Source: Pseudomonadota bacterium (GTDB lineage: Bacteria; Pseudomonadota; Gammaproteobacteria; Steroidobacterales; Steroidobacteraceae). Taken from it: a DNA stretch of 64,000 nt. A program made the position numbers and the translations under genes. Under the pieces are notes generated by a model. It did not search any database. It was not told the DNA's origin and worked only from the letters and a program-made list of their open reading frames with translations. Each line of letters opens with the position of its first letter. The first letter of the stretch is position 1. The stretch lies in NCBI GenBank assembly GCA_021843755.1, contig JAKBWB010000003.1, positions 1 to 64,000 of the forward strand, in the 5' to 3' direction. Shown here in pieces: positions 24,143 to 47,841 of the stretch.

Positions 24143-25213
24143 ATGGAATCCGACCTCGGCCCTCTCTTACCGCTCTGGGAACGTGAGCGCTGCGCCGGAC
24201 GCCCCGTCGCGCTCGCCATCCTGACCCGGACACTCGGCTCGACCTATCAGCGCCCGGGCGCGCTGCTGTTGGTCAGTTCGCGCGGCGAGTACGCGGGACT
24301 GATCTCCGGCGGCTGTCTCGAGGGTGATCTCGCCGAGCACGCACGCGCAGTCATCGAATCCGGCCGGGCGCGAGCGATCGACTATGATCTGCGCGATCCG
24401 AATGACCTGGTCTGGGGGCTCGGCGCCGGCTGCGAGGGCGCGATGCACGTGCTGCTGGTGCGCGTCGGACCCGCCGAGCAGTGGGAACCCTTGAGCTGCC
24501 TCGCGCAGGCGTACGCCACGCACAGTCCGGCCGCGATCGGCCTGATTGCCGAGTCGGATGATCCCCAACTGCCCCTCGGCACCGTGTTCGGCGCGGGCAG
24601 GGCGCCGGAAGGGCTGTCGGATGCGGCGCGCGCGGCGCTCTCTGCGGCGCCGCGCGCCGAGCGGCCGGGCTGGCACACGGAGCCAGGGCGATATGCGCTG
24701 TTTCTGCTGCCGCTCGCCCTGCCCCCGCGCCTGCTGCTGCTCGGGGCCGGCCCCGATGCCGTGCCGCTGACGCGCATCGCCTGCGAACTGCACTGGAAGG
24801 TGACGGTGGCCGACCACCGGGGCGCCTTTGCAACCGCCGAGCGCTTCCCCTCGGCCCACCGGATCATTCAGACGCGCCCCGAGGCGCTCGACGCAACGCT
24901 GAGACTGTCGGAGTTCGAGGCGGCCGTCGTGATGAGTCATCAACTACAGGCGGATCGCGAATATCTCCGTGCGCTCGCGCGCAGCCCGGTGCCCTACGTC
25001 GGCCTGCTCGGTCCGCCGGCCCGCCGGGACCGGCTGCTCGCCGAACTCGCGGAGGACGGCGAGCGTCTGGCACAACGGCTGCACGCGCCCGTCGGCCTGA
25101 ACCTGGGAGGCCGCTCCCCCCAGGCCATCGCGGTGTCCGTCGTTGCCGAGATCCTGGCGCATCGGCATCGGTGCCTCGGTCAGGTGGAATTGCGCCGGCC
25201 GGCCGCCTCATGA
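24143..25213 (+). CDS. XdhC/CoxI-family molybdenum-enzyme maturation factor
   Basis: The 356-residue protein belongs to the XdhC/CoxI family. These proteins bind molybdenum cofactor, promote its sulfuration and hand it to xanthine-dehydrogenase-type enzymes. The N-terminal XdhC domain shows AILTRTLGSTYQRPGALLLVS, the signature SGGCLEGDL and VWGLGAGCEGAM. The C-terminal Rossmann-like domain has LLLLGAGPDAVPLTRIA, a region VADHRGAFATAERFP and PYVGLLGPPARRDRLL. The stop codon overlaps the ATG of the MocA-like gene. The whole set precedes iorA-iorB, whose product needs this cofactor. Confidence 0.88.
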   Translation: MESDLGPLLPLWERERCAGRPVALAILTRTLGSTYQRPGALLLVSSRGEYAGLISGGCLEGDLAEHARAVIESGRARAIDYDLRDPNDLVWGLGAGCEGAMHVLLVRVGPAEQWEPLSCLAQAYATHSPAAIGLIAESDDPQLPLGTVFGAGRAPEGLSDAARAALSAAPRAERPGWHTEPGRYALFLLPLALPPRLLLLGAGPDAVPLTRIACELHWKVTVADHRGAFATAERFPSAHRIIQTRPEALDATLRLSEFEAAVVMSHQLQADREYLRALARSPVPYVGLLGPPARRDRLLAELAEDGERLAQRLHAPVGLNLGGRSPQAIAVSVVAEILAHRHRCLGQVELRRPAAS

Positions 25214-25830
25214 GCCGCGACCGGCTTGAGCTGCATGCGCTGGTGCTCGCGGCCGGAGCCGCGAGCCGCTTCGGCGCCCTCAAACAGCTGGCGGCGGTCG
25301 ATGGCCAGCCGCTGCTGCAGCGCGTCCTCACGCGCGCGGGCGCTGCGGCGGATCGCACCCGGGTTGTCCTGGGCGCGCACGCCGCGCGCCTTGCGCCCCT
25401 CGTCACTCAATGTGCCGCGGGCGTCGTCATAAATGCGAACTGGCGCGAAGGGATCGCGAGCTCGATCCGCGCAGGAGTGCAACATCTGCCCGCGACGTGC
25501 GCCGGCGTCATGTTGGTTCTAGGCGACCAGGCGCTGATCGAGACCGAGGACTTCAAGCGGCTGGCGCTCACCTGGCGCGCCGCGCCGCGCTCGATCGTGG
25601 CGGCGCGCCACGGCGCGGTGCTCGGTGCGCCGGCCATATTCCCGAGGCGATGGTTCGGCGCGCTCGGGCAGCTCAGCGGCGACGCCGGCGCGCGCGCGCT
25701 CATCGAGCGGCACAGCGCTGCGGTGATCGCCGTCGAGATGCCGAATGCCGCATTCGATCTCGACACGAGCGCGGATCTGGCCAGGCTCGCGCCTGCCGCA
25801 GACTCAGGCGGCGCCGGACCGAGCGGCTGA
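25210..25830 (+). CDS. MobA/MocA-like molybdopterin nucleotidyltransferase
   Basis: The 206-residue protein resembles MocA-type nucleotidyltransferases, which join CTP or GTP to molybdopterin for dinucleotide cofactors. The nucleotide-binding signature LAAGAASRFGALKQL (about 12-26) is present, with the next motifs NANWREGIASSIRAGV and MLVLGDQALI. The first Ser/Gly-rich loop reads AAGAASRFG, consistent with the family. The ATG at 25210 lies within the XdhC stop (ATGA). The pair is commonly found with molybdenum hydroxylases of the IorAB/CoxL type, which use the cytosine dinucleotide form. Confidence 0.85.
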   Translation: MSRDRLELHALVLAAGAASRFGALKQLAAVDGQPLLQRVLTRAGAAADRTRVVLGAHAARLAPLVTQCAAGVVINANWREGIASSIRAGVQHLPATCAGVMLVLGDQALIETEDFKRLALTWRAAPRSIVAARHGAVLGAPAIFPRRWFGALGQLSGDAGARALIERHSAAVIAVEMPNAAFDLDTSADLARLAPAADSGGAGPSG

Positions 25831-25911
25831 CCCGGGCAGTCGCATCGCCTATACTGGACATTCGCTTTCGGCCGCGCATACCGGTGCAGGACCGATCAGA
25901 CGGAGGCGCTC

Positions 25912-26400
25912 ATGCGGTATACCATCCGGGTCAATGGCAGACGGCGCGTCGTGCAAAGCGACGCAGATACACCGCTGCTGTGGGTTCTGCGCGACGACCT
26001 GCGGCTCACGGGCAGCAAATTCGGCTGTGGCATCGCCTACTGCGGCGCCTGCACGGTCCATCTCGATGGTGTCCCCGCGCGCGCCTGCGTCACGCCGATC
26101 TCGGCCGTGGGCAATGCGGCGATCGTCACGATCGAGGGCATCGGCCGCAGCCATTGGGGACGCAGAGTCAAGTCGGCGTGGCTCGACCTGGACGTCATGC
26201 AGTGCGGCTACTGTCAGGCGGGCCAGGTCATGACGGCGACCGCGCTGTTGGCCCGCAATCCCCGGCCGACCGATGCGGACATCGACCAGGCGATGCGCAA
26301 CAATATCTGCCGCTGCTGCACGTATACGCGCATTCGCGCAGCGATCAAGCGGGCGGCCGGCCTGCCGACGGCCGACACGCGGGAGGCCGATCATGGATAA
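25912..26400 (+). CDS. iorA: [2Fe-2S] subunit of isoquinoline 1-oxidoreductase-type enzyme
   Basis: The 162-residue protein carries two [2Fe-2S] clusters. The ferredoxin-type cluster uses Cys39, 44, 47 and 59 (FGCGIAYCGACTVHLDG). The second uses Cys98 and 101 (QCGYCQAGQ) and Cys133 and 135 (NICRCCTYTR). This is the small subunit of molybdenum hydroxylases, passing electrons from the molybdenum site of IorB to an acceptor. An extra Cys at 136 (CRCC) is seen in some IorA proteins. The ATG at 25912 follows a GGAGG-like stretch. It overlaps the next gene by eight bases, indicating coupled translation. Confidence 0.9.
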   Translation: MRYTIRVNGRRRVVQSDADTPLLWVLRDDLRLTGSKFGCGIAYCGACTVHLDGVPARACVTPISAVGNAAIVTIEGIGRSHWGRRVKSAWLDLDVMQCGYCQAGQVMTATALLARNPRPTDADIDQAMRNNICRCCTYTRIRAAIKRAAGLPTADTREADHG

Positions 26401-28681
26401 CGACGCCGCCTCAGTCCATCCGGATCATCCGCCATCCACGCCGTCTGCGCCTGCACGGCTCTCGCGGCGCGCGTTCGTAACCGCGAGCCTGACCGCCGGC
26501 GGCGGATTACTGCTGACGCTGCATCTGCCCGCCGCGGCCCGCGCCGCCGGCGCCCCCACGGAGCGCTCCGAATCCGCCGAGATCAACCCCTTCATCAGCA
26601 TCGCGCCCGATGGGATCGTCACGATCATGGCGAAGAACCCGGAAATCGGCCAGGGCATGAAGACGACGCTGCCGATGCTCATCGCCGAGGAGCTCGACGT
26701 CGAATGGAAGAATGTTCGCGCCAAGCAGGCGATGCTCGATCCGATCTACGGGCCGCAGTTCGCCGGTGGCAGCCTCGGCACACCGCTGAACTGGATTCCG
26801 ATGCAGCAGGTCGGCGCCGCCGGCCGCCAGATGCTGATCGAGGCCGCAGCGCGGATCTGGCACGTCCCGCCGGGCGAGTGCCGCGCCGCCAAGGGCATGG
26901 TGCACCACCGGCCAACCGGCCGGGCGTTGCCGTACGGAGCGCTCGCGCGCAAGGCCGCCGCGTTGAGGCCACCGGAACTCGACAGCGTCACGCTGAAGAG
27001 CCCGAAGGACTACACCATCATCGGCAAGTTTACCGGCGGCATCGACAGCCCGCGGGTCCTCGACGGTGACCGGCTGTTCGGCATCGACGTGATCGTGCCG
27101 CAGATGAGTTATGCCGTGTACGAGAAGTCACCGGTATTCGGCGGCCGTATCGTGCGTGCCAATATCGAGGAGATCCGCGCGCTGCCCGGTGTTCGCGCGG
27201 CGTTCATCGTGCGCGGATCCGCGCCCGACGCGGCCATCAAGATGGGCCTGGTCGATGGCGTCGCGATCGTCGCCGACAGATGGTGGGATGCGGAAAAGGC
27301 GCGCAGGAAGCTGCGTGTCGAGTGGACTCCGCAGGCCCGTTCGCGCCAGAGCACACAGGCCTTCGCGCAGGAAGCGGCGCGACTGATGCGGTCCAGTGCG
27401 CACTCGATCATTCGCCGCGACGGGGACGTGGACGCCGCGCTGGCGCGCGCGGCCAAGGTGCTGAAAGCGACGTACTCGTACCCATTCCTCGCGCATGCAA
27501 CCCTCGAACCACAGAACTGCACGGCGCACGTCAGGCCCGACGGCAGCGTGGAAATCTGGGCCCCCACGCAGAACCCCGACTCCGGCGCGCACCTCGTCGC
27601 CCAAACCCTCGGCATCGATCCGGGCAAGGTCAAGGTGCACATGACGCGCTGCGGCGGCGGCTTCGGCCGGCGGCTGAGCAACGATTACATGGTCGAGGCA
27701 GCCATGATCGCCAAGCGCACCGGGCGCGCGGTGAAGGTGCTGTGGGACAGAACACAGGACTTCCACCACGATGCCTACCGGCCGGCGGGATTCCATGCCT
27801 TCACGGCCGGACTGGCGGCATCGGGCAAACCGGTCGCGTTCAGGGATCACTTCGTCACCTTCGGCCAGGACGGACAGGTCGCCTCCTCGGCCAACCTGCC
27901 GCGCGATCACTTCCCCGCCGGTTATGTCCCGAGCCTCGAGTACGGCCAATCACTGCTCCAGCTCGACGTGCCCACCGGACCGATGCGCAACCCCGGAGGG
28001 AATGCGCTCGCTTTTGCCTTCGAATCCTTCATCGACGAGCTCGCCCATGCCGGAGGCCTCGACCCGCTCGCGCTGCGGCTCGATCTGTACGGACCGCCGC
28101 GCGTGCTCAGCGCCCCGCCACCACGGGGCGGCCTGCGAATACCGCCTTTCGACACCGGCCGGGTTCGCGGCGTGCTCGAGCTCGTGGCGCAGAAGTCCGG
28201 TTGGAAGCGGCGCGGTGCGTTGCCCGCGGGCACGGGTCTGGGACTCGCCTTCTATTACAGCCACTTCGGCTATGTCGCCGAGGTCGTCAAGGCGGGCGTG
28301 AACCCGGATGGTACGCCCAAGGTGCACAAGATCTGGGCAGCGGTCGACATCGGCCGACAGATCATCAATCCCGCCGGTGCCTACAACCAGGTGCAGGGCG
28401 CGGTCCTCGACGGCCTCGGACAGGCCCTGCACCTGTTGATCACCGTGGAGAACGGCCGCGTCGTGCAGCGCAATTTCGACACGTATCATCTGCTGCGCAT
28501 GGACGAGGCGCCGCCGGTCGAAGTGCATTTCCTGCTCAGCGACAACGACCCGACCGGCCTCGGCGAGCCGGCGCTGCCGCCGGTCCTGCCGGCTCTGTGC
28601 AACGCCCTGTTCGCCGCCAGCGGCACGCGCATTCGATCGTTGCCGATCGACCGGCTGCACTCCCACCACGCCAGGGCGTGA
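26393..28681 (+). CDS. iorB: Molybdopterin subunit of isoquinoline 1-oxidoreductase-type enzyme, Tat-exported
   Basis: The 762-residue protein is the large molybdenum-cofactor subunit of an IorB-type aldehyde or N-heterocycle hydroxylase. A twin-arginine signal is present: LSRRAFVTASLTAGGGLLL (23-41) and a cleavage site near AARA. The xanthine-dehydrogenase-type motifs follow: PEIGQGMKTTLPMLIAEELD, the substrate channel segment HATLEPQNCTAH, the GGGFGRRLSNDYM loop that binds the cofactor, PTGPMRNPG and GLGEPALPPV, which holds the catalytic glutamate (GxGE). Substrate is unknown; close relatives oxidise isoquinoline, aldehydes or carbon-nitrogen heterocycles. It is the last gene of xdhC-mocA-like-iorA-iorB. 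Confidence 0.9.
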   Translation: MDNDAASVHPDHPPSTPSAPARLSRRAFVTASLTAGGGLLLTLHLPAAARAAGAPTERSESAEINPFISIAPDGIVTIMAKNPEIGQGMKTTLPMLIAEELDVEWKNVRAKQAMLDPIYGPQFAGGSLGTPLNWIPMQQVGAAGRQMLIEAAARIWHVPPGECRAAKGMVHHRPTGRALPYGALARKAAALRPPELDSVTLKSPKDYTIIGKFTGGIDSPRVLDGDRLFGIDVIVPQMSYAVYEKSPVFGGRIVRANIEEIRALPGVRAAFIVRGSAPDAAIKMGLVDGVAIVADRWWDAEKARRKLRVEWTPQARSRQSTQAFAQEAARLMRSSAHSIIRRDGDVDAALARAAKVLKATYSYPFLAHATLEPQNCTAHVRPDGSVEIWAPTQNPDSGAHLVAQTLGIDPGKVKVHMTRCGGGFGRRLSNDYMVEAAMIAKRTGRAVKVLWDRTQDFHHDAYRPAGFHAFTAGLAASGKPVAFRDHFVTFGQDGQVASSANLPRDHFPAGYVPSLEYGQSLLQLDVPTGPMRNPGGNALAFAFESFIDELAHAGGLDPLALRLDLYGPPRVLSAPPPRGGLRIPPFDTGRVRGVLELVAQKSGWKRRGALPAGTGLGLAFYYSHFGYVAEVVKAGVNPDGTPKVHKIWAAVDIGRQIINPAGAYNQVQGAVLDGLGQALHLLITVENGRVVQRNFDTYHLLRMDEAPPVEVHFLLSDNDPTGLGEPALPPVLPALCNALFAASGTRIRSLPIDRLHSHHARA

Positions 28682-30114: not shown

Positions 30115-31581
30115 ATGAGAGTAAAGCGAACCTCGTTGATTCTCAGACCCGATTGTTCGCGGGTTTTCTTCCGTCCTTTCGAGCTGCGCAGCCCGGAGCA
30201 GCTCACGCGCACACTGGCCCGGGTCATGTCGCTGACGGAACAACAGGCCGAATCCGAAGCGCGGTCCATACTCGTGGATTTCGTGGCGCGCCACCAGCGG
30301 CTCAACGAATTTCTGCTGCAGAGATTCGCCCAGGTGCAGGCGGAGCTGCCGACCGATGTTCCAGTCAGCCCGGCGCGCAGACTGTTGCTCGGCGCTTATC
30401 TGACCCAGGAATACTCCCTGGAGGCGGCCGCGCTCTTCAACCCGTCCATCGTCGAGCACCCCGATCAGTCCGACCTGCCCGCCGGCAGCCTGCGGTTCGT
30501 TTTGAGTCTGCGCGCAACGGGCGAAGGTCACGTGTCCTCCATCGTCTTTCGAACCGGAATCATCGACGGCGAGGGAACCATCAGCGTGATCGAGCCGACG
30601 CGGTTCGTGACCGCCGCCGAGGTTCTGCCCAACCTTTCCTACGAGAAGAAGCTGTTCGAGCAGAAGCTCTGGGAACTCGGTCTGCTCAACGGCTTCGCCG
30701 TGGATGTTCTGGCGCAGCTTGGCGAGGTGTTCACCTGGGAGCAGCTGCACGGCACAGTGGCACGGGGCTTGCGCCGGGATCGCCAGCATCGGCTCGACGA
30801 GGAGGACGTCGCCCGCGGCGTTCTCGCCCTGGCGCGCGCCAACTATGCGGTGAGCTTCGCCGATACGACCCGCCTGTCCGAGCGGGTGATCTTTCCGAGC
30901 TCGCCGACCGAAAGCCGCGGCATCGAGGATGCGCGCTTCGTGCTGTTCAGGGACGAGGACGGCAGCCGCCGGTATTATGCGACCTTCACCGCGTTCGACG
31001 GTCACGTGGCGCTGCCCCAGCTGCTCGAGACGGATGATTTCGTCCGGTTCAACATCAGCACGCTGAACGGACCGGAGGTGCGCAACAAGGGAATGGCGCT
31101 GTTTCCGCGGCGGATCAACGGGTGTTACGCCATGCTCTCGCGCCAGGACAACGAAAACATCTACCTGATGTACTCGGACATGCTGCACTTCTGGTACGAG
31201 AAGCGGCTGCTGCTGCGGCCCACGTACCCGTGGGAATTCGTGCAGATCGGCAATTGCGGCTCGCCCATCGAGACCGACGCGGGTTGGCTGGTGCTCACCC
31301 ATGGCGTCGGCCCCATGCGCCGCTATGCCATCGGCGCGGTGCTGCTCGCCCGTGACGATCCGACGCGCGTGATCGGACGCCTGCGCGAGCCGCTGCTGCT
31401 GCCAACCGAAAGCGAGCGTGAAGGCTACGTTCCCAATGTCGTGTACAGCTGCGGCGCCCTGGTCCACGCGGGCCGGCTGATTCTGCCCTACGCGATGAGC
31501 GACCAATGCGCGAGCTTCGCGACGGTCTGCCTTGCCGAGCTGCTCGGCGAACTCACGGCCCACGGAGCCGAGGCACAATGA
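30115..31581 (+). CDS. GH130-family glycoside phosphorylase/hydrolase, long form
   Basis: The 488-residue protein belongs to glycoside hydrolase family 130, most of whose members phosphorolyse beta-mannosides to mannose 1-phosphate. The five-bladed propeller domain is in the second half, with SRGIEDARFVLF (ESRGIEDAR near residues 266-274; D272 is the predicted catalytic acid) and GNCGSPIETDAGWLVLTHGVGP. The first 230 residues form a helical N-terminal extension not found in the short GH130 proteins. No signal peptide is present, so it is cytoplasmic. ATG at 30115 follows a short spacer from the promoter candidate. Its stop overlaps the next gene's ATG. Beta-mannoside substrate is inferred from the family. 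Confidence 0.82.
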   Translation: MRVKRTSLILRPDCSRVFFRPFELRSPEQLTRTLARVMSLTEQQAESEARSILVDFVARHQRLNEFLLQRFAQVQAELPTDVPVSPARRLLLGAYLTQEYSLEAAALFNPSIVEHPDQSDLPAGSLRFVLSLRATGEGHVSSIVFRTGIIDGEGTISVIEPTRFVTAAEVLPNLSYEKKLFEQKLWELGLLNGFAVDVLAQLGEVFTWEQLHGTVARGLRRDRQHRLDEEDVARGVLALARANYAVSFADTTRLSERVIFPSSPTESRGIEDARFVLFRDEDGSRRYYATFTAFDGHVALPQLLETDDFVRFNISTLNGPEVRNKGMALFPRRINGCYAMLSRQDNENIYLMYSDMLHFWYEKRLLLRPTYPWEFVQIGNCGSPIETDAGWLVLTHGVGPMRRYAIGAVLLARDDPTRVIGRLREPLLLPTESEREGYVPNVVYSCGALVHAGRLILPYAMSDQCASFATVCLAELLGELTAHGAEAQ

Positions 31582-33920
31582 GCTTTCCGAAGTCGAGCAG
31601 CCGCTTCGCGCTGGTGTGCGACTACGTGCCGCGGCGCTGTGGCATCGCGACGTTCTCGCACGATCTGTGTCAGATGCTGGTTGGGCACGCCAAGTCCGCC
31701 GAGTGCATCGTCGTGCCGGTGAACGACGTGCCGGAGGGCTACGACTATCCTCCGGAGGTCCGCTTCGAGATCTGCGAGCAGGACCTGAAGTCCTACCAGC
31801 GTGCAGCGGACTTCCTCAACTTCAGCGACGCCGAAATCGTTTGCCTGCAGCACGAGTTCGGCATCTACGGCGGACCGGCGGGCAGTCACATTCTGGCGCT
31901 GTTGAGGCAGCTGCGCATCCCGGTGGTCGCGCAGCTGCACACGGTGCTGGCCGAGCCCAATCGCGAGCAGCGCCGCGTCATCGACGAAATGAGCCGCCTG
32001 GTCGCGCGATTCATCGTCATGAGCGAGCGCGGCCGCGGGATGCTCAGCGGGATCTACAGGATCGGCGCCGAGCGGATCGACGTGATTCCGCATGGCATCC
32101 CCGACATGCCGTTCGTCGACCCGGCGTTCTACAAGGATCAGTTTGGCGTCGAGGGCAAGAAGACTCTGTTGACCTTCGGACTGCTCTCCCCCGGCAAGGG
32201 CATCGAGTACGTGTTGCATGCGCTGCCGGAGATTCTGGCCGCGGTGCCCGATCTGGTCTACATCGTTCTCGGCGCGACCCACCCGAATCTGCTGCGCCAA
32301 GAAGGCGAGAACTACCGGTTCGGACTGGAGCGGCTGGTTTCCGACCTCGGGATCAAGCAGAACGTCATCTTCTACAATCGGTTCGTCGAGATCGGGGAAC
32401 TGAAAGAGTTCCTCGGCGCAGCCGACATCTACATCACGCCGTATCTGAACCCCGCGCAGATCACCTCCGGCACGCTCGCCTACGCGTTCGGCTGCGGCAA
32501 GGCCGTCGTATCGACCCCGTACTGGCATGCCCAGGAGCTGCTTGCCAACGGCCGCGGGGTGCTGGTGCCGTTTCGCGACAGCACGGCCATCGCGCGCGAA
32601 GTCGTCGCCCTGTTCGAGGACGAAGTGCGGCGCCATGCCATGCGCAAGCAGGCGTATCTGCTCGGTCGCGAGATGACCTGGGATCACCTCGGGCACGAAT
32701 ATCTGGAGTCCTTCCGCAAGGCGCGCGAAGCGCAATCCGGGCGGCGCCACCCTCGGGCACTGCTGAAGACCCGGGAACAGGAGCAATTCGAGCTGCCGCC
32801 CCTGCAGCTGGCGCATCTGCGGCGGCTCTCGGACGCCGTCGGCCTGATGCAGCACGCGGTATGTTCCGTGCCGAACTTCCGCGAAGGCTATTGCACGGAC
32901 GACAATTCACGCGCGCTGTTGCTCGCGGTGCTGCTGGAGGAGACCGGCGATGACGCGCCGGAAATCCGGCTGGCCGCCTATCGGTACGCGGCGCTCATCG
33001 ACTATGCGTTCATTCCCGGGTCCCGGCGCTTTCACAACTTCATGAGCTTCGAGCGGCGCTGGATGGATGAGTGCGGATCCGACGACTGCTGGGGCCGCGT
33101 GTTATGGGCGCTCGGGGCCTGCGTCGGCCGTTCGCGCCGCCCGGATCTGCAGCGCTGGGCGATGCAGTGGTTCGAGCCGGCGCTGACGGGCATAGACCGA
33201 TCCGAGGCGCCGCGGGCCTGGGCATTTGCGCTGCTCGGAATTCACGAGTATTTCCGCAGATTGAGCGGTGACCGCTTCGTCAGTCAGATGCGCGAGGCAC
33301 TCCTGCAGCGTCTGCTGGCGAGATTTCATCAGGCCAGCCGCCCGGATTGGCCGTGGTTCGAAGACGCCCTCACCTACGTGAACGCCAAACTGCCGCACGC
33401 GCTCATCCTGGGCGGCCGGTGGGCCGGTGTGGGCGAGGCGCTCGATGTCGGCTTGCGCACCCTGCGGTGGCTGGTAGAAGTTCAGACCGCGGAAGCCGGG
33501 CATTTTCGCCCGATCGGCTGCAACGGCTTCTATCCGCGCGGCGGTCCGCGCGCGCAGTTCGATCAGCAGCCGATCGAAGCCTACACCACGATGTCGGCGT
33601 GCCTGGAGGCCTGGTTCGCGACGCGCGATGAGTTCTGGATGAACGAGGCGCGCAAGGCCTTCGAATGGTTCCTCGGGCGCAACGACCTTGGCCGATCGCT
33701 GTACGATGCCGGCACCGGGGGCTGCTTCGATGCGCTGCACGTCGACCGCGTCAATTTGAATCAGGGCGCGGAATCGACCCTGGCGTTCCTGCTGGCCCTG
33801 CAGGAGATGCGGCTGGCGGAAACTTCGCTGGAGGTATTGGCCGATCCGGCCGGGCCCGGCCGTGGCGCCCGCGCCCGCGTGAACCGCGCGGGCATCGAGT
33901 CGGAGTGTCTGATGAAATGA
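31578..33920 (+). CDS. GT4 glycosyltransferase fused to an alpha/alpha-toroid domain
   Basis: The 780-residue protein begins with a GT4 (GT-B fold) glycosyltransferase in residues 1-400: VCDYVPRRCGIATFSHDL, HEFGIYGGPAG, VIPHGIPDMPF, the sugar-nucleotide site with LLTFGLLSPGKGIEYVL, and GTLAYAFGCGKAVVSTPYWHAQELL. Residues 410-770 look like an (alpha/alpha)6 toroid, with helices and conserved stretches CTDDNSRALLLAVLLEE, GSRRFHNFMSFERRW and IGCNGFYPRGG. This second part resembles glycan-processing toroid proteins, but I cannot name a family. Its ATG overlaps the stop of the first GH130 gene and its stop overlaps the start of the second, so all three are made together. Confidence 0.82.
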   Translation: MSFPKSSSRFALVCDYVPRRCGIATFSHDLCQMLVGHAKSAECIVVPVNDVPEGYDYPPEVRFEICEQDLKSYQRAADFLNFSDAEIVCLQHEFGIYGGPAGSHILALLRQLRIPVVAQLHTVLAEPNREQRRVIDEMSRLVARFIVMSERGRGMLSGIYRIGAERIDVIPHGIPDMPFVDPAFYKDQFGVEGKKTLLTFGLLSPGKGIEYVLHALPEILAAVPDLVYIVLGATHPNLLRQEGENYRFGLERLVSDLGIKQNVIFYNRFVEIGELKEFLGAADIYITPYLNPAQITSGTLAYAFGCGKAVVSTPYWHAQELLANGRGVLVPFRDSTAIAREVVALFEDEVRRHAMRKQAYLLGREMTWDHLGHEYLESFRKAREAQSGRRHPRALLKTREQEQFELPPLQLAHLRRLSDAVGLMQHAVCSVPNFREGYCTDDNSRALLLAVLLEETGDDAPEIRLAAYRYAALIDYAFIPGSRRFHNFMSFERRWMDECGSDDCWGRVLWALGACVGRSRRPDLQRWAMQWFEPALTGIDRSEAPRAWAFALLGIHEYFRRLSGDRFVSQMREALLQRLLARFHQASRPDWPWFEDALTYVNAKLPHALILGGRWAGVGEALDVGLRTLRWLVEVQTAEAGHFRPIGCNGFYPRGGPRAQFDQQPIEAYTTMSACLEAWFATRDEFWMNEARKAFEWFLGRNDLGRSLYDAGTGGCFDALHVDRVNLNQGAESTLAFLLALQEMRLAETSLEVLADPAGPGRGARARVNRAGIESECLMK

Positions 33921-34978
33921 TCCCCCGGCTGCGCAGCCGGCGCCTTTTGGGCCCCGAGGACATCCCGCCGTCGCAGGATGATCTGCGGGTCGTCGGCGCT
34001 TTCAATCCCGGAGTCATCGACACCGGCGATGGAATTACGCTGTTGGTGCGCGTCGCGGAGACGGCGCGGGAAAAGCGCCCGGCATTCGTTGCGCTGCCTC
34101 GTTGGGATCCGGCCGGAGCGCGCATCGGCATCGACTGGCTCCCCGAGGACGAGGTGTTCGCCGATGACCCGCGCGTGGTCACCATACGGTCCACGGGCCT
34201 CAAGCGCCTGACGTTCTTTTCGCATCTGCTCGTCGCGCACAGCCGCGATGGCTGGAACATCGATGCTGTCGGACCGATGCGGATCTGGCCCGCGGGGGAG
34301 TTGGAAGAGTTCGGTATGGAGGACCCGCGCATCACGGCATTGAACGGTCGATACTATTTCAGCTATGTCGCCGTGTCGCGCCACGGCGCGGCCACGGCGC
34401 TCGCCTCGACCGGCGACTTCCGCGACTTCGACCGCCTCGGCGTGATCTTTCCGCCCGAGAACAAGGATGTCGTACTGTTTCCCGAGCGTGTCCACGGGGA
34501 GTTTCTCGCGCTGCACCGGCCGAATCCCGCGCAACATTTCACGCGCCCGGGGATCTGGCTCGCGTCCTCGCCGGATCTGACTCATTGGGGAGGTCACGCG
34601 CCGCTGCTGCGCGGCGCGGGCGCGCACGAAGCCGGGCGCATCGGGGCGGGGAGCCCGCCGATTCGAACCGCGGCGGGGTGGCTCGCGATCTATCACGGCA
34701 ATGCCGCGGGGGCGGGCCCGCCGGCGGGGGTGGGGACCTATGGCGCGGGCGCCGTCCTGACGGATCTCGACCGGCCCGGCAGGATCATCGGTCGCTGCAC
34801 CCGGGTGCTCGCCCCGGAAACCCCTTATGAGCGCCAGGGATTCGTGCCGGATGTGATATTTCCAACCGGCATCGTGCCGCGCGGGGAAACGGTGCTGATC
34901 TATTACGGCGCGGCGGACCAGGCCGTCGGCGTCACGCAATTGCGGCTGCGCGATTTATTGCGCGCCGTGGGTCATTGA
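33917..34978 (+). CDS. GH130-family phosphorylase/hydrolase, short form
   Basis: The 353-residue protein is a typical single-domain GH130 propeller. The catalytic GMEDPRIT (133-140, D136) is canonical. Other family signatures are GAFNPGVIDTGDGITLLVRV (blade 1), NKDVVLFPER, GIWLASSPDLTHWGG and IGAGSPPIRTAAGWLAIYHG. The ending IYYGAADQAVGVTQL is also conserved. Members phosphorolyse mannosides such as beta-1,4- or beta-1,2-mannobiose, or hydrolyse them. Its start lies within the ATGA at the stop of the glycosyltransferase gene. A hairpin follows directly after its stop. Confidence 0.88.
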   Translation: MIPRLRSRRLLGPEDIPPSQDDLRVVGAFNPGVIDTGDGITLLVRVAETAREKRPAFVALPRWDPAGARIGIDWLPEDEVFADDPRVVTIRSTGLKRLTFFSHLLVAHSRDGWNIDAVGPMRIWPAGELEEFGMEDPRITALNGRYYFSYVAVSRHGAATALASTGDFRDFDRLGVIFPPENKDVVLFPERVHGEFLALHRPNPAQHFTRPGIWLASSPDLTHWGGHAPLLRGAGAHEAGRIGAGSPPIRTAAGWLAIYHGNAAGAGPPAGVGTYGAGAVLTDLDRPGRIIGRCTRVLAPETPYERQGFVPDVIFPTGIVPRGETVLIYYGAADQAVGVTQLRLRDLLRAVGH

Positions 34979-35035: not shown

Positions 35036-36415
35036 TCACTGCTCGAGGATCGGATCGTACCAGCCGTCGGGCGGGGCGAGCCGGGCCGCCTCGGAGGGAC
35101 CCCAGGTTCCGGGCTGGTATGCGTGTACCGGCGTGCCGGCCTTGAGCGCCGGATCGACGATGCGCCAGGCTTCCTCGACGTAATCCTCGCGGGCAAACAA
35201 CGTGCTGTCTCCGGACATCGCGTCCGTGAGCACCCGCTCGTAGGCCTCCATCTCGTTCGCGCCGGCGTGCCGGCTCGCCAGCAGCTCGTTGGTCTGGCCG
35301 ACACCGAGCTCGGCCTCGTCCATCACGTTCAGGCCGATCGCCATCTCGTTCTGCGGACTGATACGGAAACGGAAGTAGTTGGGCTGCGGAGTGCAGCCGG
35401 AATAGAGCGAAGGCGGGCGGCGCAGATGGACGACGACTTCGGTGCAGGTCACCGGCAGGGATTTGCCCGTACGGATGTAGAAGGGCACGCCCTGCCAACG
35501 CCAGTTGTCCAGCTCCAGGCGAAGCGCTGCGAACGTCTCGGTCTGCGAGTTCGGCGCCACGCCCTTCTCCTGGAGATAACCGCTGAACTGGCCGCGAACC
35601 AGATCCGCGGGGGTCAGGGGCGGGATCGCCTTGAGCACTTTCACCTTCTCGTCACGGATCGATTCGCTGTCGGTGCGTGCCGGCGGCTCCATGGCGAGGT
35701 TGGCGAGCACCTGAAACAAGTGATTCTGCACGACGTCGCGGACCGCGCCGACCGGATCGTAGAACGACCCGCGTCCCTGGATGCCGAAGTTCTCGGCCAT
35801 GGTGATCTGCACGCTCTTGACGTACTCGCGGCTCCAGAACGACTCCAGGAGCGCGTTGGTGAAGCGGAAGAACACCATGTTGTGCACCGGCCGCTTGCCG
35901 AGATAGTGGTCGATGCGGAAGATGTGCTGCTCATCGAACGAGCCGAGCAGGATCTGATTGAGCGCGCGCGCCGACTGCAGATCGTGTCCGAAGGGCTTCT
36001 CCACCACCACGCGCGTGCCCGGCTGGGTGCAGCCCGCCTGCGCGAGCTGCTCGACGACCTTGCCGAACAGCGACGGTGGAATCGCCAGGTAGTGCGCCGG
36101 CCGACTCGCCTTCCCGAGCAGCTTGCGCAGCGTGCGAAACGTCGCCGCGTCGGCGTAGTCGCCGTCCACGTACGAGAGGAGCGCGGTGAGTTTCGCGAAT
36201 GCTTGCGGATCGACGCCGCCACCGTGCTGCTCCAGACTCGCGCGCGCGCGTTCCCGCAGCTGCTCGATGCCCCATCCGGCCTTCGCCACGGCGATCACCG
36301 GGACGGTGAGCGTGCCGCGTTTGATCATCGCCTGCAGCGCCGGAAAGACCTTCTTGAAAGCCAGGTCGCCGGTGGCCCCGAAGAATACCAGCGCGTCGCT
36401 GTGGGTTTCGTTCAT
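35036..36415 (-). CDS. zwf: Glucose-6-phosphate dehydrogenase
   Basis: The 459-residue enzyme oxidises glucose 6-phosphate to 6-phosphogluconolactone with NAD(P)+. The dinucleotide-binding loop is GATGDLAFKKVFPAL near the N-terminus. The active-site signature is RIDHYLGKRPV (catalytic His and Lys in RIDHYLGK; canonical enzymes have KE, here KR). The EKPFGHDLQSA and VPFYIRTGKSLP motifs are also present. Start at 36415 begins at the conserved N-terminus. It is the last gene of tal-ROK-pgi-gnd-zwf on the minus strand. Confidence 0.95.
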   Translation of the reverse strand: MNETHSDALVFFGATGDLAFKKVFPALQAMIKRGTLTVPVIAVAKAGWGIEQLRERARASLEQHGGGVDPQAFAKLTALLSYVDGDYADAATFRTLRKLLGKASRPAHYLAIPPSLFGKVVEQLAQAGCTQPGTRVVVEKPFGHDLQSARALNQILLGSFDEQHIFRIDHYLGKRPVHNMVFFRFTNALLESFWSREYVKSVQITMAENFGIQGRGSFYDPVGAVRDVVQNHLFQVLANLAMEPPARTDSESIRDEKVKVLKAIPPLTPADLVRGQFSGYLQEKGVAPNSQTETFAALRLELDNWRWQGVPFYIRTGKSLPVTCTEVVVHLRRPPSLYSGCTPQPNYFRFRISPQNEMAIGLNVMDEAELGVGQTNELLASRHAGANEMEAYERVLTDAMSGDSTLFAREDYVEEAWRIVDPALKAGTPVHAYQPGTWGPSEAARLAPPDGWYDPILEQ

Positions 36416-36435
36416 GTGAGCCTCCGCTGCTGTGC

Positions 36436-37452
36436 CTATTTGGCCGGTTTCTCGAGGTGGCCACCAAACTCGTAGCGCATGGCCGAGAGAATTTTCGCCT
36501 GGAAGTCCGCCTCGCCGCGCGAGCTGAAGCGCTCGTAGAGCGCCGTGGTGAGCACCGGCGCCGGCTGCCCTTCGTCGATCGCCGCCTTGATCGTCCAGCG
36601 CCCCTCGCCGGAATCGGACACGTGGCCGGCGAATTTCGCCAGTGTCGGGTCGCGCTGCAGCGCGTCGGCCGTGAGATCGAGCAGCCAGGAGGCGATGACG
36701 CTGCCGCGTCGCCAAACCTCGGTGATGTCCGCCAGATTCAACTCATACTGGTAATTCTGCGGATCCCGCAGCGGGGTGGTCTCCGCATCCACCTCCTCGG
36801 GGCGCCGCCCGACGTTGGCCGCACGCAGGATGCCGAGGCCCTCGGCATACGCGGCCATGATGCCGTACTCGATGCCGTTGTGAACCATCTTGACGAAATG
36901 ACCGGCGCCGTTCGGTCCGCAGTGCAGGTAGCCCTGTTCGGCCGGGCCCGGCGGGCCCGAGCGCCCCGCGGTGCGCGCGATCGAGCCGATGCCGGGCGCG
37001 AGCCGCGCCAGCACCGGGTCGAGGCGTTTCACCGCGGCGTTGCCCCCGCCGATCATCATGCAGTAGCCGCGCTCGAGGCCCCACACCCCGCCGCTGGTAC
37101 CGACGTCCACGTACTCGATGCCCTTGTCCGCCAGCGCCCGGGCGCGGCGGATGTCGTCGATATAGTAGGAATTGCCGCCGTCGATGACGATATCACCCTT
37201 GCCGAGCAGCGGCACCAGATCCGCGAGCGTGGCGTCGACCGCCGCGGCCGGCACCATCAGCCACACCGCCCGCGGCGCGGCGAGCTTCTGCACCAGCTCG
37301 GCCAGCGAAGCGGCGCCGGTCGCTTTCTCCTTGACCAGCTCGGCGACCGCGGCCGCCGAGCGATCGAACACCACGCACTCGTGGCCGCCCTGCAAGAGCC
37401 GCCGCACCATGTTTGCGCCCATGCGCCCAAGGCCGATCATTCCGAGTTGCAT
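36436..37452 (-). CDS. gnd: 6-phosphogluconate dehydrogenase (decarboxylating), short GntZ/YqeC-like type
   Basis: The 338-residue enzyme converts 6-phosphogluconate to ribulose 5-phosphate, CO2 and NAD(P)H. The Rossmann motif is GMIGLGRMGANMVRRLL (GxGxMG). The substrate and catalytic segments are VIDGGNSYYIDD, DVGTSGGVWGLERGYCMMIGG and HFVKMVHNGIEYGIMAAYAEG, with the conserved Lys and Asn in KMVHNGIEYG. About 330 residues is the short, usually NAD-preferring subgroup, against about 470 for the long form. The ATG at 37452 has GAGGAG upstream. It lies 20 bases before zwf on the minus strand. Confidence 0.93.
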   Translation of the reverse strand: MQLGMIGLGRMGANMVRRLLQGGHECVVFDRSAAAVAELVKEKATGAASLAELVQKLAAPRAVWLMVPAAAVDATLADLVPLLGKGDIVIDGGNSYYIDDIRRARALADKGIEYVDVGTSGGVWGLERGYCMMIGGGNAAVKRLDPVLARLAPGIGSIARTAGRSGPPGPAEQGYLHCGPNGAGHFVKMVHNGIEYGIMAAYAEGLGILRAANVGRRPEEVDAETTPLRDPQNYQYELNLADITEVWRRGSVIASWLLDLTADALQRDPTLAKFAGHVSDSGEGRWTIKAAIDEGQPAPVLTTALYERFSSRGEADFQAKILSAMRYEFGGHLEKPAK

Positions 37453-37534
37453 GAATCGCTCCTCATAATTGCATAGCGACGGATGAGCGGCGCCGTGCAC
37501 GCCGCCGCGGTTGCCGCCGGACCGCCCGGCAGGC

Positions 37535-39178
37535 TCATTGCGAGCCTTTCATCTTGCGATAGCGGCGAATCAGGTTGTTCGTCGAGCTGTCGTGGCGCAG
37601 CGCCGGGGCGGCCGGACCTTCCAGCTCGGGGATGATCGCCTGGGCCAGCGCCTTGCCCAGCTCGACGCCCCACTGGTCGAAGGAGTTGATGTTCCAGATG
37701 ACGCCCTGGGTGAACACGCTGTGCTCGTAGAGCGCGACCAGCTTGCCGAGCGCTGCGGGCGTGAGCCGCTCGGCGAGAATCGTATTCGAGGGACGGTTGC
37801 CCTCGAACACCCGATGCGGCGCCAGCCACTCGGCAATACCCTCGGCACGCACCTGCTCCAGGGTCTTGCCGAACGCGAGCGCCTCGCCCTGGGCGATGAC
37901 GTTGGCAAGCAGCATGTCGTGATGGCGTCCGAGCGGTGTCAGCGCATGCGCGAACGCGATGAAGTCGCAGGGAATGAGCCGCGTCCCCTGATGAATCAGC
38001 TGATAAAAGGAATGCTGTCCGTTGGTCCCCGGCTCGCCCCAGTAGATCGGCCCGGTATCGACCCCGACGGGATCGCCCGCGAGCGTGACGTGCTTGCCGT
38101 TGCTCTCCATCGTCAGCTGCTGCAGATATGCCGGGAAGCGCTTGAGGTACTGCTCGTACGGCAGCACGGCGATGGTCTGTGCCCCGAAGAAATCCGTATA
38201 CCACACCCCCAGCAGCGCCAGCAGCACCGGCAGGTTGCGCTCGAACGGCGCGGTGCGGAAATGCTCGTCCATCTGCCGGAAGCCCGCGAGCATGGCCCGG
38301 AAGTTCTCCGGCCCGACGGCGAGCATGGTCGACAGGCCGATCGCCGAGTCCATGGAGTAGCGCCCGCCCACCCAGTCCCAGAAGCCGAACATGTTGGCGG
38401 TGTCGATGCCGAACGCGGCGACCTTCTCCGCGTTGGTCGAGACCGCCACGAAATGCTTGGCCACCGCGGCCGCATCGCCGCCGAGCCCACCGAGCAACCA
38501 GTCGCGCGCGGTATGCGCATTGGTCATGGTCTCGAGCGTGGTGAAGGTCTTCGACGAGACGACGAACAGCGTCTCGGCCGGGTCGAGATCGCGCGTCGCC
38601 TCGAGGAAGTCCGTGCCGTCGACGTTCGACACGAAGCGAAAGCACAGCGCGCGCTCGCTGTAGTGGCGCAGCGCCTCGTAGGCCATCACCGGGCCGAGAT
38701 CCGAGCCGCCGATGCCGATGTTGATGACGTTGCGGATACGGCGGCCGGTGTGGCCGAGCCACTGGCCGCGGCGTACGCGCTCGGCGAATGCGCTCATCTT
38801 GTCGAGAACCGCGTGCACCTCGGGCACGACATCGGCGCCGTCGACCAGGATGCTCTGGCCGCGCGGCGCACGCAGCGCCACATGCAGCACGGCGCGATTC
38901 TCGGTCACGTTGATCTTCTGACCCGAGAACATCGCCTCGATGCGCTCGCGCAGGTGCGCCTCCTCGGCGAGCGCAAGCAGCAGCCGCAACGTCTCGTCGG
39001 TGACGCGGTTCTTGGAGTAATCGAGGAATATCCCGGCGCCCTCCGCGGTGAGCCGCTCACCGCGGCGGCCGTCCTCGGCGAACAGCTGGCGCAGATGCGT
39101 ACCGGCGACGCTGCGGTGGTGAGCGGCGAGCGCCCGCCATGCGGGCCGCTCGCCGGGGGTCTGGTCCGTCTTGCTCAT
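37535..39178 (-). CDS. pgi: Glucose-6-phosphate isomerase
   Basis: The 547-residue enzyme interconverts glucose 6-phosphate and fructose 6-phosphate. Signature segments are [34 protein letters not shown], the catalytic Glu in [19 protein letters not shown], and the C-terminal [13 protein letters not shown]. Length matches E. coli Pgi. Its ATG lies within the stop of the preceding ROK gene. GGAGG precedes it within that gene. Confidence 0.96.
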
Positions 39179-39891
39179 GTCCGGTTCCTCCGCTTTCCGC
39201 GGCCCCCGGCCGGGCGCGATGCACGCGGGCGGCGCGCCGCGCCCGCCTTTTCCCACAGCGCGAATCCGCCCTTGAAGGCGTTGGCGTTGTCACCCGCACG
39301 GCACAGCGGCGGCAGCGTCTTCAAGTGCCGGACGTTGCCGCCCCCGATCACGATCTCATCGGGCTCGAGCGCCGCCGCGAGCTGCTTGACGACGTCGGCG
39401 ACGTGCTTGCGCCATTTCTTCTTTCCCAGGCGCTCGAGCGCCCGATCGCTGACGTAGTCCTCGTAAGTATGCTTCAGATACGGCAGATGCCCGATCTCCA
39501 TCGGCTCGACCAGCCCGTCGACGATGAGCGCGGTGCCGAGCCCGGTCCCGAGCCCGAGGAAGAGCATCCTGCCGCCGCGGTAGCTGCCCAGGGCCTGCAT
39601 CGCCGCATCGTTGACGACGCGCACCGGACAGCCGAAAGCGCGGGCAAAATCGAAGCCCACCCAGCCGGCGCCGAGATTGTGCGGCTCGGCCACCACGTGA
39701 TCGTGCACGACCGGCCCCGGGTAGCCGATCGAGACCGCCTCGTAGCGCCAGCCGCGCGCCAGCCGCTTCACGCGCGCGACCATCTGCCGCGCCGTCAGCT
39801 TCGGGCCGGATTCGAACTCGCGCTTCTCGGTCTCGCCCGTGGCGAGAATCTTCACATGCGTCCCACCGACATCGACCGCGAGCACCCTCAT
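39175..39891 (-). CDS. ROK-family glucokinase (polyphosphate-glucokinase-like)
   Basis: The 238-residue protein has the ASKHA fold of the ROK family. The phosphate-1 motif is [12 protein letters not shown] near the N-terminus, with sugar-binding [10 protein letters not shown] and the phosphate-2 motif [16 protein letters not shown]. The C-terminal adenosine-type motif appears as [15 protein letters not shown]. It resembles polyphosphate or ATP glucokinases of the PpgK group, which phosphorylate glucose; the donor cannot be told from the sequence. The usual ROK zinc motif is not visible. Gene order with tal upstream and pgi downstream supports supply of glucose 6-phosphate. A basic tail ([15 protein letters not shown]) ends it. 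Confidence 0.8.
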
Positions 39892-39896
39892 GGCAG

Positions 39897-40982
39897 TCAG
39901 GCCGCCGCACCGAGCGCCGAGCTCTTCGCTGCGATGACCGCGAGCAGGTCCTGCCAGGATTTCACGAACGCCGCGGCGCCCTCCTGCTGCAACTGCTCGG
40001 CGAGCGCGAGCACGTCGATGCCGGCCTCGGCGAACCGCGCGAGCACCTGCTCGCAATCGCCGCCGTCCTCGGCCAGACCGGCGCCGATTTCGCTACGTTC
40101 CGCCACCGCCTTGAGCGTGGCCTCGGGTATCGTGTTGACGGTAAACGGCGCCGCCAGCGCGTTGACGTACAGCGCCGGGTCGGCCTTGGGATCCTTGGTG
40201 CCGGTGCTGGCCCAAAGCAATCGCTGCGGCCGCGCTCCGGCGTTGTACAGGCGCCGGGCGCGCGCCGAGAACAACAGCTGCAGAGCCGCGCGGTAGGTCC
40301 GCCCGGCAATGGCGATGCCCAGGAGGTTGGTCAGGTCCGCCGGCGTCTTGCCGGCGACCGCCACATCCCAGCGGCTGACGAACACCGAAGCCACGGAGCC
40401 GACATCGGGATTCAGTCCCGCCGCCACACGCCGCTCGATGCCACGCACATACGCCTCGGCGGCGGCGAGGTACTGTTCACGCGAGAACAGGAGCGTCACG
40501 TTGACGGGAATGCCCGCGAAGATCGCCGCCTCGATGGCCGGCAACCCCGCCTTGGTCCCCGGGATCTTGATGAACAGATTCGGCCGATCGGCCTCGGCGT
40601 GCAGCGCCTTGGCCGCCGCGATGGTCTTGTCGGTGTCGTAGGCGAGCTGCGGAGAGACTTCGAGCGATACCCAGCCGTCGACTCCGTTGGTGCGCTCGAA
40701 CGTCGGGCGGAATTCGTCCGCGGCCCGTCTGATGTCCGCGAGCGCCAGGTCGAAGAACAGCGTCTCGCCCTTGCGCCCCGCCTTGAGCTGCGCGCGGATC
40801 GAGCTGTCATACGCCGTGCTGTTCTTCACCGCATGATCGAAGATCGTCGGGTTGGAGGTCAGGCCGGTCACCGACAGCTCGGCGATGTAACGCCGCAGCG
40901 TTCCGCTGTCGAGCAGATCACGAGTGATGTTGTCGAGCCAGATGCTCTGTCCGAGCTGGTGCAGTAGCTGCGTCGCTTTCAT
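39897..40982 (-). CDS. tal: Transaldolase
   Basis: The 361-residue enzyme transfers dihydroxyacetone units between sedoheptulose 7-phosphate and glyceraldehyde 3-phosphate. The N-terminal signature is GLTSNPTIFDHAV (40-52). The Schiff-base lysine is in NLFIKIPGTKAG (Lys139). The LLWASTGTKDP phosphate-binding segment is conserved. This length is that of the long bacterial Tal class, and about 45 residues longer than E. coli TalB. It is the first gene of the pentose-phosphate operon; the gap upstream should hold the operon promoter. Confidence 0.95.
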   Translation of the reverse strand: MKATQLLHQLGQSIWLDNITRDLLDSGTLRRYIAELSVTGLTSNPTIFDHAVKNSTAYDSSIRAQLKAGRKGETLFFDLALADIRRAADEFRPTFERTNGVDGWVSLEVSPQLAYDTDKTIAAAKALHAEADRPNLFIKIPGTKAGLPAIEAAIFAGIPVNVTLLFSREQYLAAAEAYVRGIERRVAAGLNPDVGSVASVFVSRWDVAVAGKTPADLTNLLGIAIAGRTYRAALQLLFSARARRLYNAGARPQRLLWASTGTKDPKADPALYVNALAAPFTVNTIPEATLKAVAERSEIGAGLAEDGGDCEQVLARFAEAGIDVLALAEQLQQEGAAAFVKSWQDLLAVIAAKSSALGAAA

Positions 40983-46355: not shown

Positions 46356-46376
46356 CCCCCCCACACCCGCCGCACC

Positions 46377-47828: not shown

Positions 47829-47841
47829 GGAGGCGGTCGCC

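Follow-up and report, generated by a model that had tools for sequence, protein, structure and literature searches.

A GT4-toroid fusion flanked by two GH130 enzymes: a candidate mobile module for mannoside turnover in bacteria

Why would a bacterium encode, in one tight operon, two different enzymes of glycoside hydrolase family 130 (GH130) and, between them, a family 4 glycosyltransferase (GT4) fused to an (alpha/alpha)6 toroid? The question is raised by a stretch of 64,000 nucleotides from contig JAKBWB010000003.1 of a Steroidobacteraceae genome (GCA_021843755.1), hereafter the window. The original prediction, made from the letters of the window alone, took these three genes for an intracellular cycle in which the glycosyltransferase makes an oligosaccharide that the GH130 enzymes phosphorolyse. 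We favour an amended version, a cytosolic, horizontally moving module of mannoside turnover, to which we give an even chance of being right. Gene content, recurrence, residue patterns and predicted folds are its observed basis, on which we propose a sugar, a linkage, reaction directions and a physiological use.

Pfam matches and coordinates agree that two distinct GH130 genes, GH130a and GH130b, stand around the fusion gene (Table 1), and both joints are ATGA stop-start overlaps that can be read directly. The N-termini, read by eye with no signal-peptide predictor, are consistent with the lack of export signals that had been claimed. An FMN-oxidoreductase gene upstream ends 214 bases before GH130a; downstream, GH130b (end at 34978) and the zwf gene of the opposite strand (end at 35036) are convergent, and the predicted convergence with pentose-phosphate genes extends to gnd, pgi and tal on that other strand. 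The Pfam scan of the fusion was run on a longer open reading frame (ORF), 31506-33920, whose start at 31506 is probably not the true one, and that of GH130b on 33914-34978. Scans of the operon gave one promoter-like site, on the opposite strand (0.5 expected), and one terminator-like site, within GH130b (3.4 expected); both are uninformative.

The gene order is not unique to this genome, which the original prediction had named as a possible refutation. One scan of a genome collection yielded 28 loci with the fused glycosyltransferase (GT-toroid), of which 27 were used, and a GH130 gene lay near or beside it in 22 of the 27 (GH130a in 19, a GH130b-type gene in 16, both in 13); at L040, L041 and L051 the sole GH130 is a distant b-type of 170-180 bits. 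The order of the window is found again in L025, from the same genus, and in L026 and L027 (Verrucomicrobiota), with the GH130a of L027 cut off at the contig end. Six cyanobacterial loci also have this order, with GT and GH130b about 1.1 kb apart; at the only one examined (L029, 10262-11374) a GFO/IDH/MocA oxidoreductase gene overlaps both and may be a fourth member of the module in that cyanobacterium. A Synechococcus locus (L030, 6526-7998) has an interrupted GH130a, with two matching ORFs.

By the names in record titles, mostly of metagenome-assembled genomes, loci with both GT and GH130 occur in Pseudomonadota, Verrucomicrobiota, Cyanobacteriota, Planctomycetota, Chloroflexota, Elusimicrobiota, Hydrogenedentota and Bacillota. 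With Fusobacteriota and Deinococcota, represented by plasmids, the total is ten phyla, and the long GH130a was seen in seven of them; in the two KSB1 loci the GT stands without a GH130. Among 40 genomes near that of the window, a strong full-length GT match was present in the genome itself, in 6 of 24 congeners and in 2 of 15 others of the order. In a set of 274 genomes drawn from the class, nine have GT-toroid, nine have GH130a and eight have both (hypergeometric P 1.1e-13, kinship ignored), and by coordinates at least one GT is adjoined by GH130a in all eight; a second GT piece in G234, at a contig edge, cannot be judged. The GT match of G071 is broken by a stop, and that genome gave no GH130a match. 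Searched individually, seven of eight genomes or records had a strong GH130a match. The toroid was found in 27 plasmid records, with a GH130 match or gene within 2 kb in 24 of them (that of NZ_CP011450 counted from annotation, that of Deinococcus a distant GH130) and, in the remaining three, 5.6 kb off in one and about 19 kb off in two. Because the genes recur side by side in so many lineages, we regard the set as more than chance. On a Neorhizobium galegae plasmid (L055, 9052-11341) the GT gene runs over three frames and is absent from the gene table, either as a broken copy or through a sequence error.

The same genome holds a second copy on contig C45 (L059, 8070-12723), with a manA-like gene, a GT-toroid 47% identical to that of the window, and GH130a. 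In a maximum-likelihood tree of 56 GT rows, whose deeper part has several unresolved or poorly supported forks and which includes six rows marked as long branches, the window GT and that of L025 are nested in Verrucomicrobiota sequences (supports 100/100 with L025, 100/96 with L026, 100/99 with L027), and the C45 copy belongs to a separate clade with congeners and alphaproteobacterial plasmids (100/99). Since their clades are separate, the two GT versions in this genome probably arrived by different routes. A third GH130 locus of the genome (C43) scores 18.7 bits, or 26.7 with its frame neighbours, and matches neither GH130a nor GH130b.

What do the GH130 enzymes act on? GH130 enzymes are inverting and act on beta-mannosides, according to the accessible text of PMC4264767. 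GH130b resembles in sequence the beta-1,2-mannobiose phosphorylase type: its best relatives among solved structures in a phmmer search are Lin0857 (1.3e-66) and Uhgb_MS (2e-60), although its 299 bits against the model of that enzyme, NF050092, lie under the cut-off of 550. It has the motifs NKD, HRP, RIGAG and YHGN and the -1-site segments FNPG, MEDPR and GAAD. Basic residues or His occupy all three compared phosphate-site positions (R of HRP, R of RIGAG, H of YHGN), in columns that we take from UhgbMP. In L064 and L066 the GH130b-like proteins carry R in place of the NK lysine.

In GH130a the -1-subsite Asn is N109, the conserved Asp is D272 and the third residue is D463, and the NK motif is kept. 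The counterparts in Teth514_1788 are Asn28, Asp92 and Asp281, as given in the accessible part of PMC4264767. The -1-site residues of both window enzymes were matched by alignments and motifs, the Asn column by motif since it lies beyond the printed alignments. The 230-residue N-terminal extension that had been ascribed to GH130a turned out to be an artefact of the Pfam match PF04041, which starts at residue 226: as N109 and D272 correspond to Asn28 and Asp92, about 81 residues stand in front and about 99 lie inside the propeller, between N109 and D272. Teth514_1788 (303 residues in 9fj8) has neither part. An AlphaFold2 (AF2) model of GH130a, with a mean predicted local distance difference test score (pLDDT) of 79, has a five-bladed propeller in which the extra parts are largely helices (27-95 and 178-241). 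Its VIA fold matches are Lin0857 (Z 30.2, root mean square deviation, rmsd, 2.8 over 280 aligned residues), tied with Uhgb_MS (Z 29.4) and Teth514_1788 (Z 29.2); the GH130 hydrolase entry 5a7v follows at Z 24.8, and the Leishmania enzymes MPT-4 and MPT-2 at Z 18.4 and 17.9. The predicted fold is thus far closer to GH130 phosphorylases (Z about 30) than to the Leishmania MPT enzymes (Z about 18), and phmmer returned no row for the GT108 entry 6q50 at E 0.001.

In GH130 beta-1,2-mannosidases, glutamates replace basic phosphate-site residues, as stated in the available portion of PMC4599007. Such glutamates are not present in the window enzymes, which have R343 and Q378 (GH130a) and R and R (GH130b), so by that published distinction, as far as the portion gives it, GH130a is not a hydrolase of the BT3780 type. 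R343 is kept in 34 of 34 rows and H396 in every row that reaches so far. Both enzymes carry NK, like Teth514_1788 and Teth514_1789, where the alignments give NR for TM1225; the lysine appears, on our own reading without a published alignment figure, to be the Lys199-type lysine of BT3780. Family match, -1-site residues and the NK lysine, apparently that of beta-1,2 enzymes, support the mannoside chemistry that had been expected from the family. Beta-1,2-mannobiose phosphorylases, 1,2-beta-oligomannan phosphorylases and a mannoside synthase fed by mannose 1-phosphate are the nearest relatives of known structure.

The protein between them is harder to read, and its role is the point that we hold with least certainty in the favoured account. 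In its AF2 model (pLDDT 82.6) a GT4 domain spans about residues 7-388 and the toroid about 399-755; the predicted template modelling score (pTM) is 0.51, so that the relative placing of the halves is unsure. The GT half matches Glycos_transf_1 (62.9 bits, cut-off 26.4) and Glyco_transf_4 (34.4 bits, cut-off 28.5), and its nearest folds by VIA are sucrose-phosphate synthase (Z 35.4) and MshA (34.9), which are tied, and PimA (33.7). It shares with these the GT-B fold and sequence similarity, but differs from them by the added C-terminal toroid and by its active-site signature. E-x7-E is typical of GT4; aligned with PimA, whose residue roles we assume, this motif becomes Q294-x7-Y302 and the donor-phosphate Arg becomes L202, while His and Lys are kept as H121 and K207. 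All 57 GT rows have Q294, Y302, L202 and K207.

The toroid has no Pfam match of its own at E 0.01, and we therefore rejected its assignment to a known Pfam family. A profile search of solved structures with E up to 1 returned 7tem alone (2e-15), which is also the best VIA match (Z 37.3, rmsd 2.7, 335 aligned). Cellobiose 2-epimerases follow at Z about 29-30 over 325-336 residues, consistent with a predicted (alpha/alpha)6 fold. Likeness to the cellobiose 2-epimerase/AGE toroids is one of fold, and that to YPO2471 (7tem) one of fold and sequence; an epimerase activity of the toroid would be conjecture. By its title, YPO2471 is a putative exported Yersinia protein, without a stated function. Conserved polar residues suggest a working pocket: D441, D442, R445, N702 and D718 are found in 55 of 57 rows (two gapped), D662 in 54, and, among the His positions counted, H426 in 55 and H413 in 47.

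These patterns would also suit a protein in which the GT4 domain is structural or binds a sugar phosphate rather than using a nucleotide-diphosphate sugar, and in which the toroid is a working hydrolase, lyase or epimerase that feeds GH130. The lost motif and Arg are universal among the rows, while the second GT4 genes of the clusters L064, L124, L130 (Ilyobacter) and L131 (Deinococcus) keep E-x7-E, and the toroid has its conserved polar residues. Yet conservation of the GT domain is high (mean column identity 65% over 21 rows, with K207 in all 57 rows and H121 in 56, one gap), and Tyr at the second place of the motif also occurs in glycogen synthases. A toroid-less GT4 beside GH130a in L122 is related to the window GT domain (27.6% over 380 residues) and showed no E-x7-E-type motif in the expected region; its presence there hints that the GT half can work by itself. 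We rate this alternative as quite unlikely.

Which sugar is handled? Indications come from relatives of the module. In eight loci (L053, L054, L055, L057, L059, L061, L063 and L065) manA runs 4 bases into the start of the GT gene. A mannose-1-phosphate guanylyltransferase is annotated at the module in L057, L058, L072 and L132, stands beside the GH130b-type gene in L066 (638 bits) and adjoins the GT in L051 (332.6 bits, cut-off 373). A phosphomannomutase follows the module in L057, and L124 has a phosphohexomutase with 526 bits to the L057 protein, whose best NCBIfam model is phosphoglucosamine mutase, under its cut-off. L123 and L124 each encode a second GT4 that is joined to the isomerase part of GMP_PMI (about 140 bits). 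A larger version of the cluster, with GT-toroid, GH130 and a second GT4, was seen in L064, L123, L124, L130 and L131. The gene that follows in L069 and L070 encodes an AGE-family epimerase. An island of S. sanxanigenens (L073) combines GT, GH130, tkt, tal/pgi, gnd, zwf, two HAD-IIB genes, a second GH130, pgl and manA; zwf is also close to the module in L025, L061, L063 and L065, as it is in the window, and L071 has GT and GH130 with none of the neighbours named here. Because of the manA, guanylyltransferase, phosphohexomutase and GT4-isomerase neighbours in relatives, mannose is likely the sugar, and the neighbours taken together connect the module with fructose 6-phosphate and the pentose-phosphate pathway. 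The mannose context is thus upheld by many relatives, though no such gene stands beside the window operon.

The same neighbours could serve salvage, in which GH130a and GH130b phosphorolyse imported or recycled beta-mannosides, the mannose 1-phosphate becomes GDP-mannose, and the GT4-toroid spends it on a cell-surface glycan. The Thermoanaerobacter cluster described in PMC4264767, as far as its accessible text goes, offers a model, since a role of this kind has been proposed for it: it has two GH130 phosphorylases, a GT4 and a mannose-1-phosphate guanylyltransferase, such as is found at several module copies, and shares the -1-site residues and NK motif. But five ABC-transporter genes and a GH5 also belong to that cluster, whose GT4 is called there no more than an alpha-mannosyltransferase. 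The annotated window genes (part of the window ORFs are unannotated) include no mannoside importer, and none was seen directly beside the module in the gene tables, themselves incomplete, of plasmid loci, L053-L055, L057, L058 and L069-L073 among them. Salvage moreover leaves the toroid without explanation, and we think it fairly unlikely.

A compatible-solute route draws on other neighbours. Here the GT4-toroid would attach mannose, or possibly a different hexose, to an acceptor that is small or phosphorylated; a phosphatase would then release the product, to be recycled by GH130. In favour, the tied best folds of the GT domain are sucrose-phosphate synthase and MshA, HAD-IIB hydrolases are encoded close to the module in L058, L072, L073 and L132, and dnaK, groL, universal stress protein and Dps genes are close by on sphingomonad plasmids. 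However, folds do not reveal acceptors, the four HAD-IIB loci lie on just three plasmids, two with near-identical GT rows, and for no ORF in 37 scanned loci was the top label at E 1e-8 one of three HAD-IIB proteins. We see little chance for this route as a whole. On the sphingomonad plasmids the module of L057, L058, L072, L073 and L132 is near DnaK/GrpE, GroEL, universal stress protein or Dps genes, and that of L073 also near Crp/Fnr regulators, acetate kinase and phosphate acetyltransferase. On account of the stress and acetate-kinase neighbourhood, a Burkholderia low-oxygen locus was considered as the same type of island and dropped, the accessible text of PMC6127331 containing no mannose gene; GH130 was not among the terms checked there.

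How, then, would mannoside turnover work? Fructose 6-phosphate would be converted to activated mannose, as mannose 1-phosphate or GDP-mannose. The GT4-toroid would make or edit an acceptor (an alpha-linked primer, a backbone or a terminus), which the toroid may trim. The GH130 enzymes would add beta-mannosyl units, probably beta-1,2-linked, from mannose 1-phosphate, or remove them with phosphate, and the released mannose 1-phosphate would return through mannose 6-phosphate and fructose 6-phosphate to central metabolism. The direct cycle of the original prediction, in which the GT4 product is itself the substrate of phosphorolysis, finds no support in that form. GT4 is a retaining family, MshA being named as such, and a retaining GT4 is not expected to make the beta bond that an inverting GH130 cuts, so the same bond would not be made and broken and the simple cycle needs amending; the Q-x7-Y signature and the Gln of GH130a speak in the same direction. 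Uhgb_MS suggests how: the available part of PMC8950772 describes it as a mixed-linkage mannoside synthase that uses mannose 1-phosphate and whose products include beta-mannosyl on alpha-1,2-mannotriose, so that an alpha-making GT4 and a beta-acting GH130 could share one molecule. By analogy with Uhgb_MS, Teth514_1788/1789 and the Leishmania enzymes, acceptor supply by the GT-toroid and exchange of beta-mannose by GH130 through mannose 1-phosphate would be the most economical arrangement. Use as a reserve is a guess from the apparent cytosolic location, the lack of an importer among annotated window genes and the central-metabolism neighbours; many of these observations would also suit a compatible solute or a glycoconjugate.

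Besides this mismatch of retaining and inverting chemistry, several observations weigh against mannoside turnover. Given Q-x7-Y and L202 in every GT row, use of GDP-mannose is unproven. At Q378, a phosphate-site position, 29 of 34 GH130a rows have Gln, three have Lys and two Ile, where the alignments give Arg or Lys for Teth514_1788, Teth514_1789, TM1225 and Lin0857; GH130a may or may not be a normal phosphorylase. Neither manA nor a guanylyltransferase adjoins the window operon, and the only GMP_PMI match to a mannose-1-phosphate guanylyltransferase in this genome reaches 94.6 bits against a cut-off of 372.95, so that GDP-mannose synthesis by that enzyme is not established here; the phosphohexomutase domain PF02878 has three matches in the genome. 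Glycogen synthase and glycogen phosphorylase genes are present as well, so a mannoside would not be the sole reserve, and we ruled out the module as a replacement for glycogen on the same ground. Nor is the association complete. Five of the 27 GT loci (L042, L043, L046, L047 and L048) have no GH130 beside them; several are on short contigs or close to a contig end, and their GTs are 44-49% identical to that of the window, as are those of L045, L050 and L051, which have GH130. GH130a stands beside a toroid-less GT4 in G101 and has no GT-toroid beside it in the plasmid loci L127-L129, in copper- and stress-gene regions, and the genome of L040 has a GH130b-type match and no long GH130a match. Finally, the open-access literature that we searched yielded no biochemistry for any module member. 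The lone GH130a of L127 lies among copper-resistance genes, and that of L128 near TerD, HAD-IIB and acetate kinase genes.

Each of the enzymes falls in a known family; is the system itself known? For the gene combination, the GT4-toroid fusion with Q-x7-Y and the GH130a subfamily, we found no description in the open-access literature searched, in agreement with the original prediction, which knew of no functional description. Most subscription papers lay outside that search, and the silence is therefore no proof of novelty. Intracellular GH130 in soil archaea and GH130 counts in Isosphaeraceae are mentioned in the accessible parts of PMC11131427 and PMC5352709, respectively, which do not contain the window arrangement. 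A possible parallel in function is Leishmania mannogen, where five-bladed propellers carry out transfer and phosphorolysis on a beta-1,2-mannan energy store; its GT108 enzymes are a separate sequence family, and the available part of PMC8950772 does not mention a GT4-toroid.

Bacterial carbohydrate reserves are known mainly as glycogen. If mannoside turnover is correct, a widespread mobile GH130-based mannose cycle would be a further cytosolic route for holding hexose and a bacterial parallel to the mannogen enzymes, and many genes labelled 'glycosyltransferase family 4' or 'glycoside hydrolase family 130' would gain a function. The GT4 variant is in any case a concrete puzzle open to enzyme assays. 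A bolder version, which we consider doubtful, is that some ten phyla hold a mannogen-like cytosolic mannan or oligomannoside reserve, run by GT4-toroid and GH130 (with the second GT4 in larger versions) and borne on plasmids or islands near stress and pentose-phosphate genes, and that the GT4-toroid is a new glycosyltransferase group with Q-x7-Y chemistry.

Table 1. Positions of the operon, its joints and its neighbours in the window, and of lone GH130a genes on plasmids
Feature	Coordinates	Strand	Basis
GH130a	30115..31581	+	488 aa; PF04041 103 bits (cut-off 26)
GT4-toroid fusion gene	31578..33920	+	780 aa; PF00534, PF13692 and PF13439 above cut-off
GH130b	33917..34978	+	353 aa; PF04041 150.5 bits (cut-off 26)
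ATGA stop-start overlap, GH130a/GT	31578..31581	+	sequence read directly
ATGA stop-start overlap, GT/GH130b	33917..33920	+	sequence read directly
zwf, glucose-6-phosphate dehydrogenase (convergent neighbour)	35036..36715	-	TIGR00871 463 bits, above cut-off
gnd-type 6-phosphogluconate dehydrogenase	36436..37500	-	TIGR00872 420 bits, above cut-off
pgi	37535..39256	-	NF001211 845 bits, above cut-off
tal	39897..40982	-	NF002881 441 bits, above cut-off
Lone GH130a, L127	8061-9284		
Lone GH130a, L128	8019-9254		
Lone GH130a, L129	7971-9275		

Among the neighbours in the window, zwf is at most a possible member of the module. An ORF between pgi and tal (39175-40056, minus strand) is weakly like polyphosphate glucokinase (73.7 bits, cut-off 250). 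Elsewhere in the window, genes for an XdhC-like protein, a MobA-like nucleotidyltransferase and a molybdopterin-binding oxidoreductase stand in a row at 24143-28681, and prpC, prpD and prpB of the methylcitrate cycle, all above their NCBIfam cut-offs, lie at 45195-48744, adjoining a LysR-type regulator gene.

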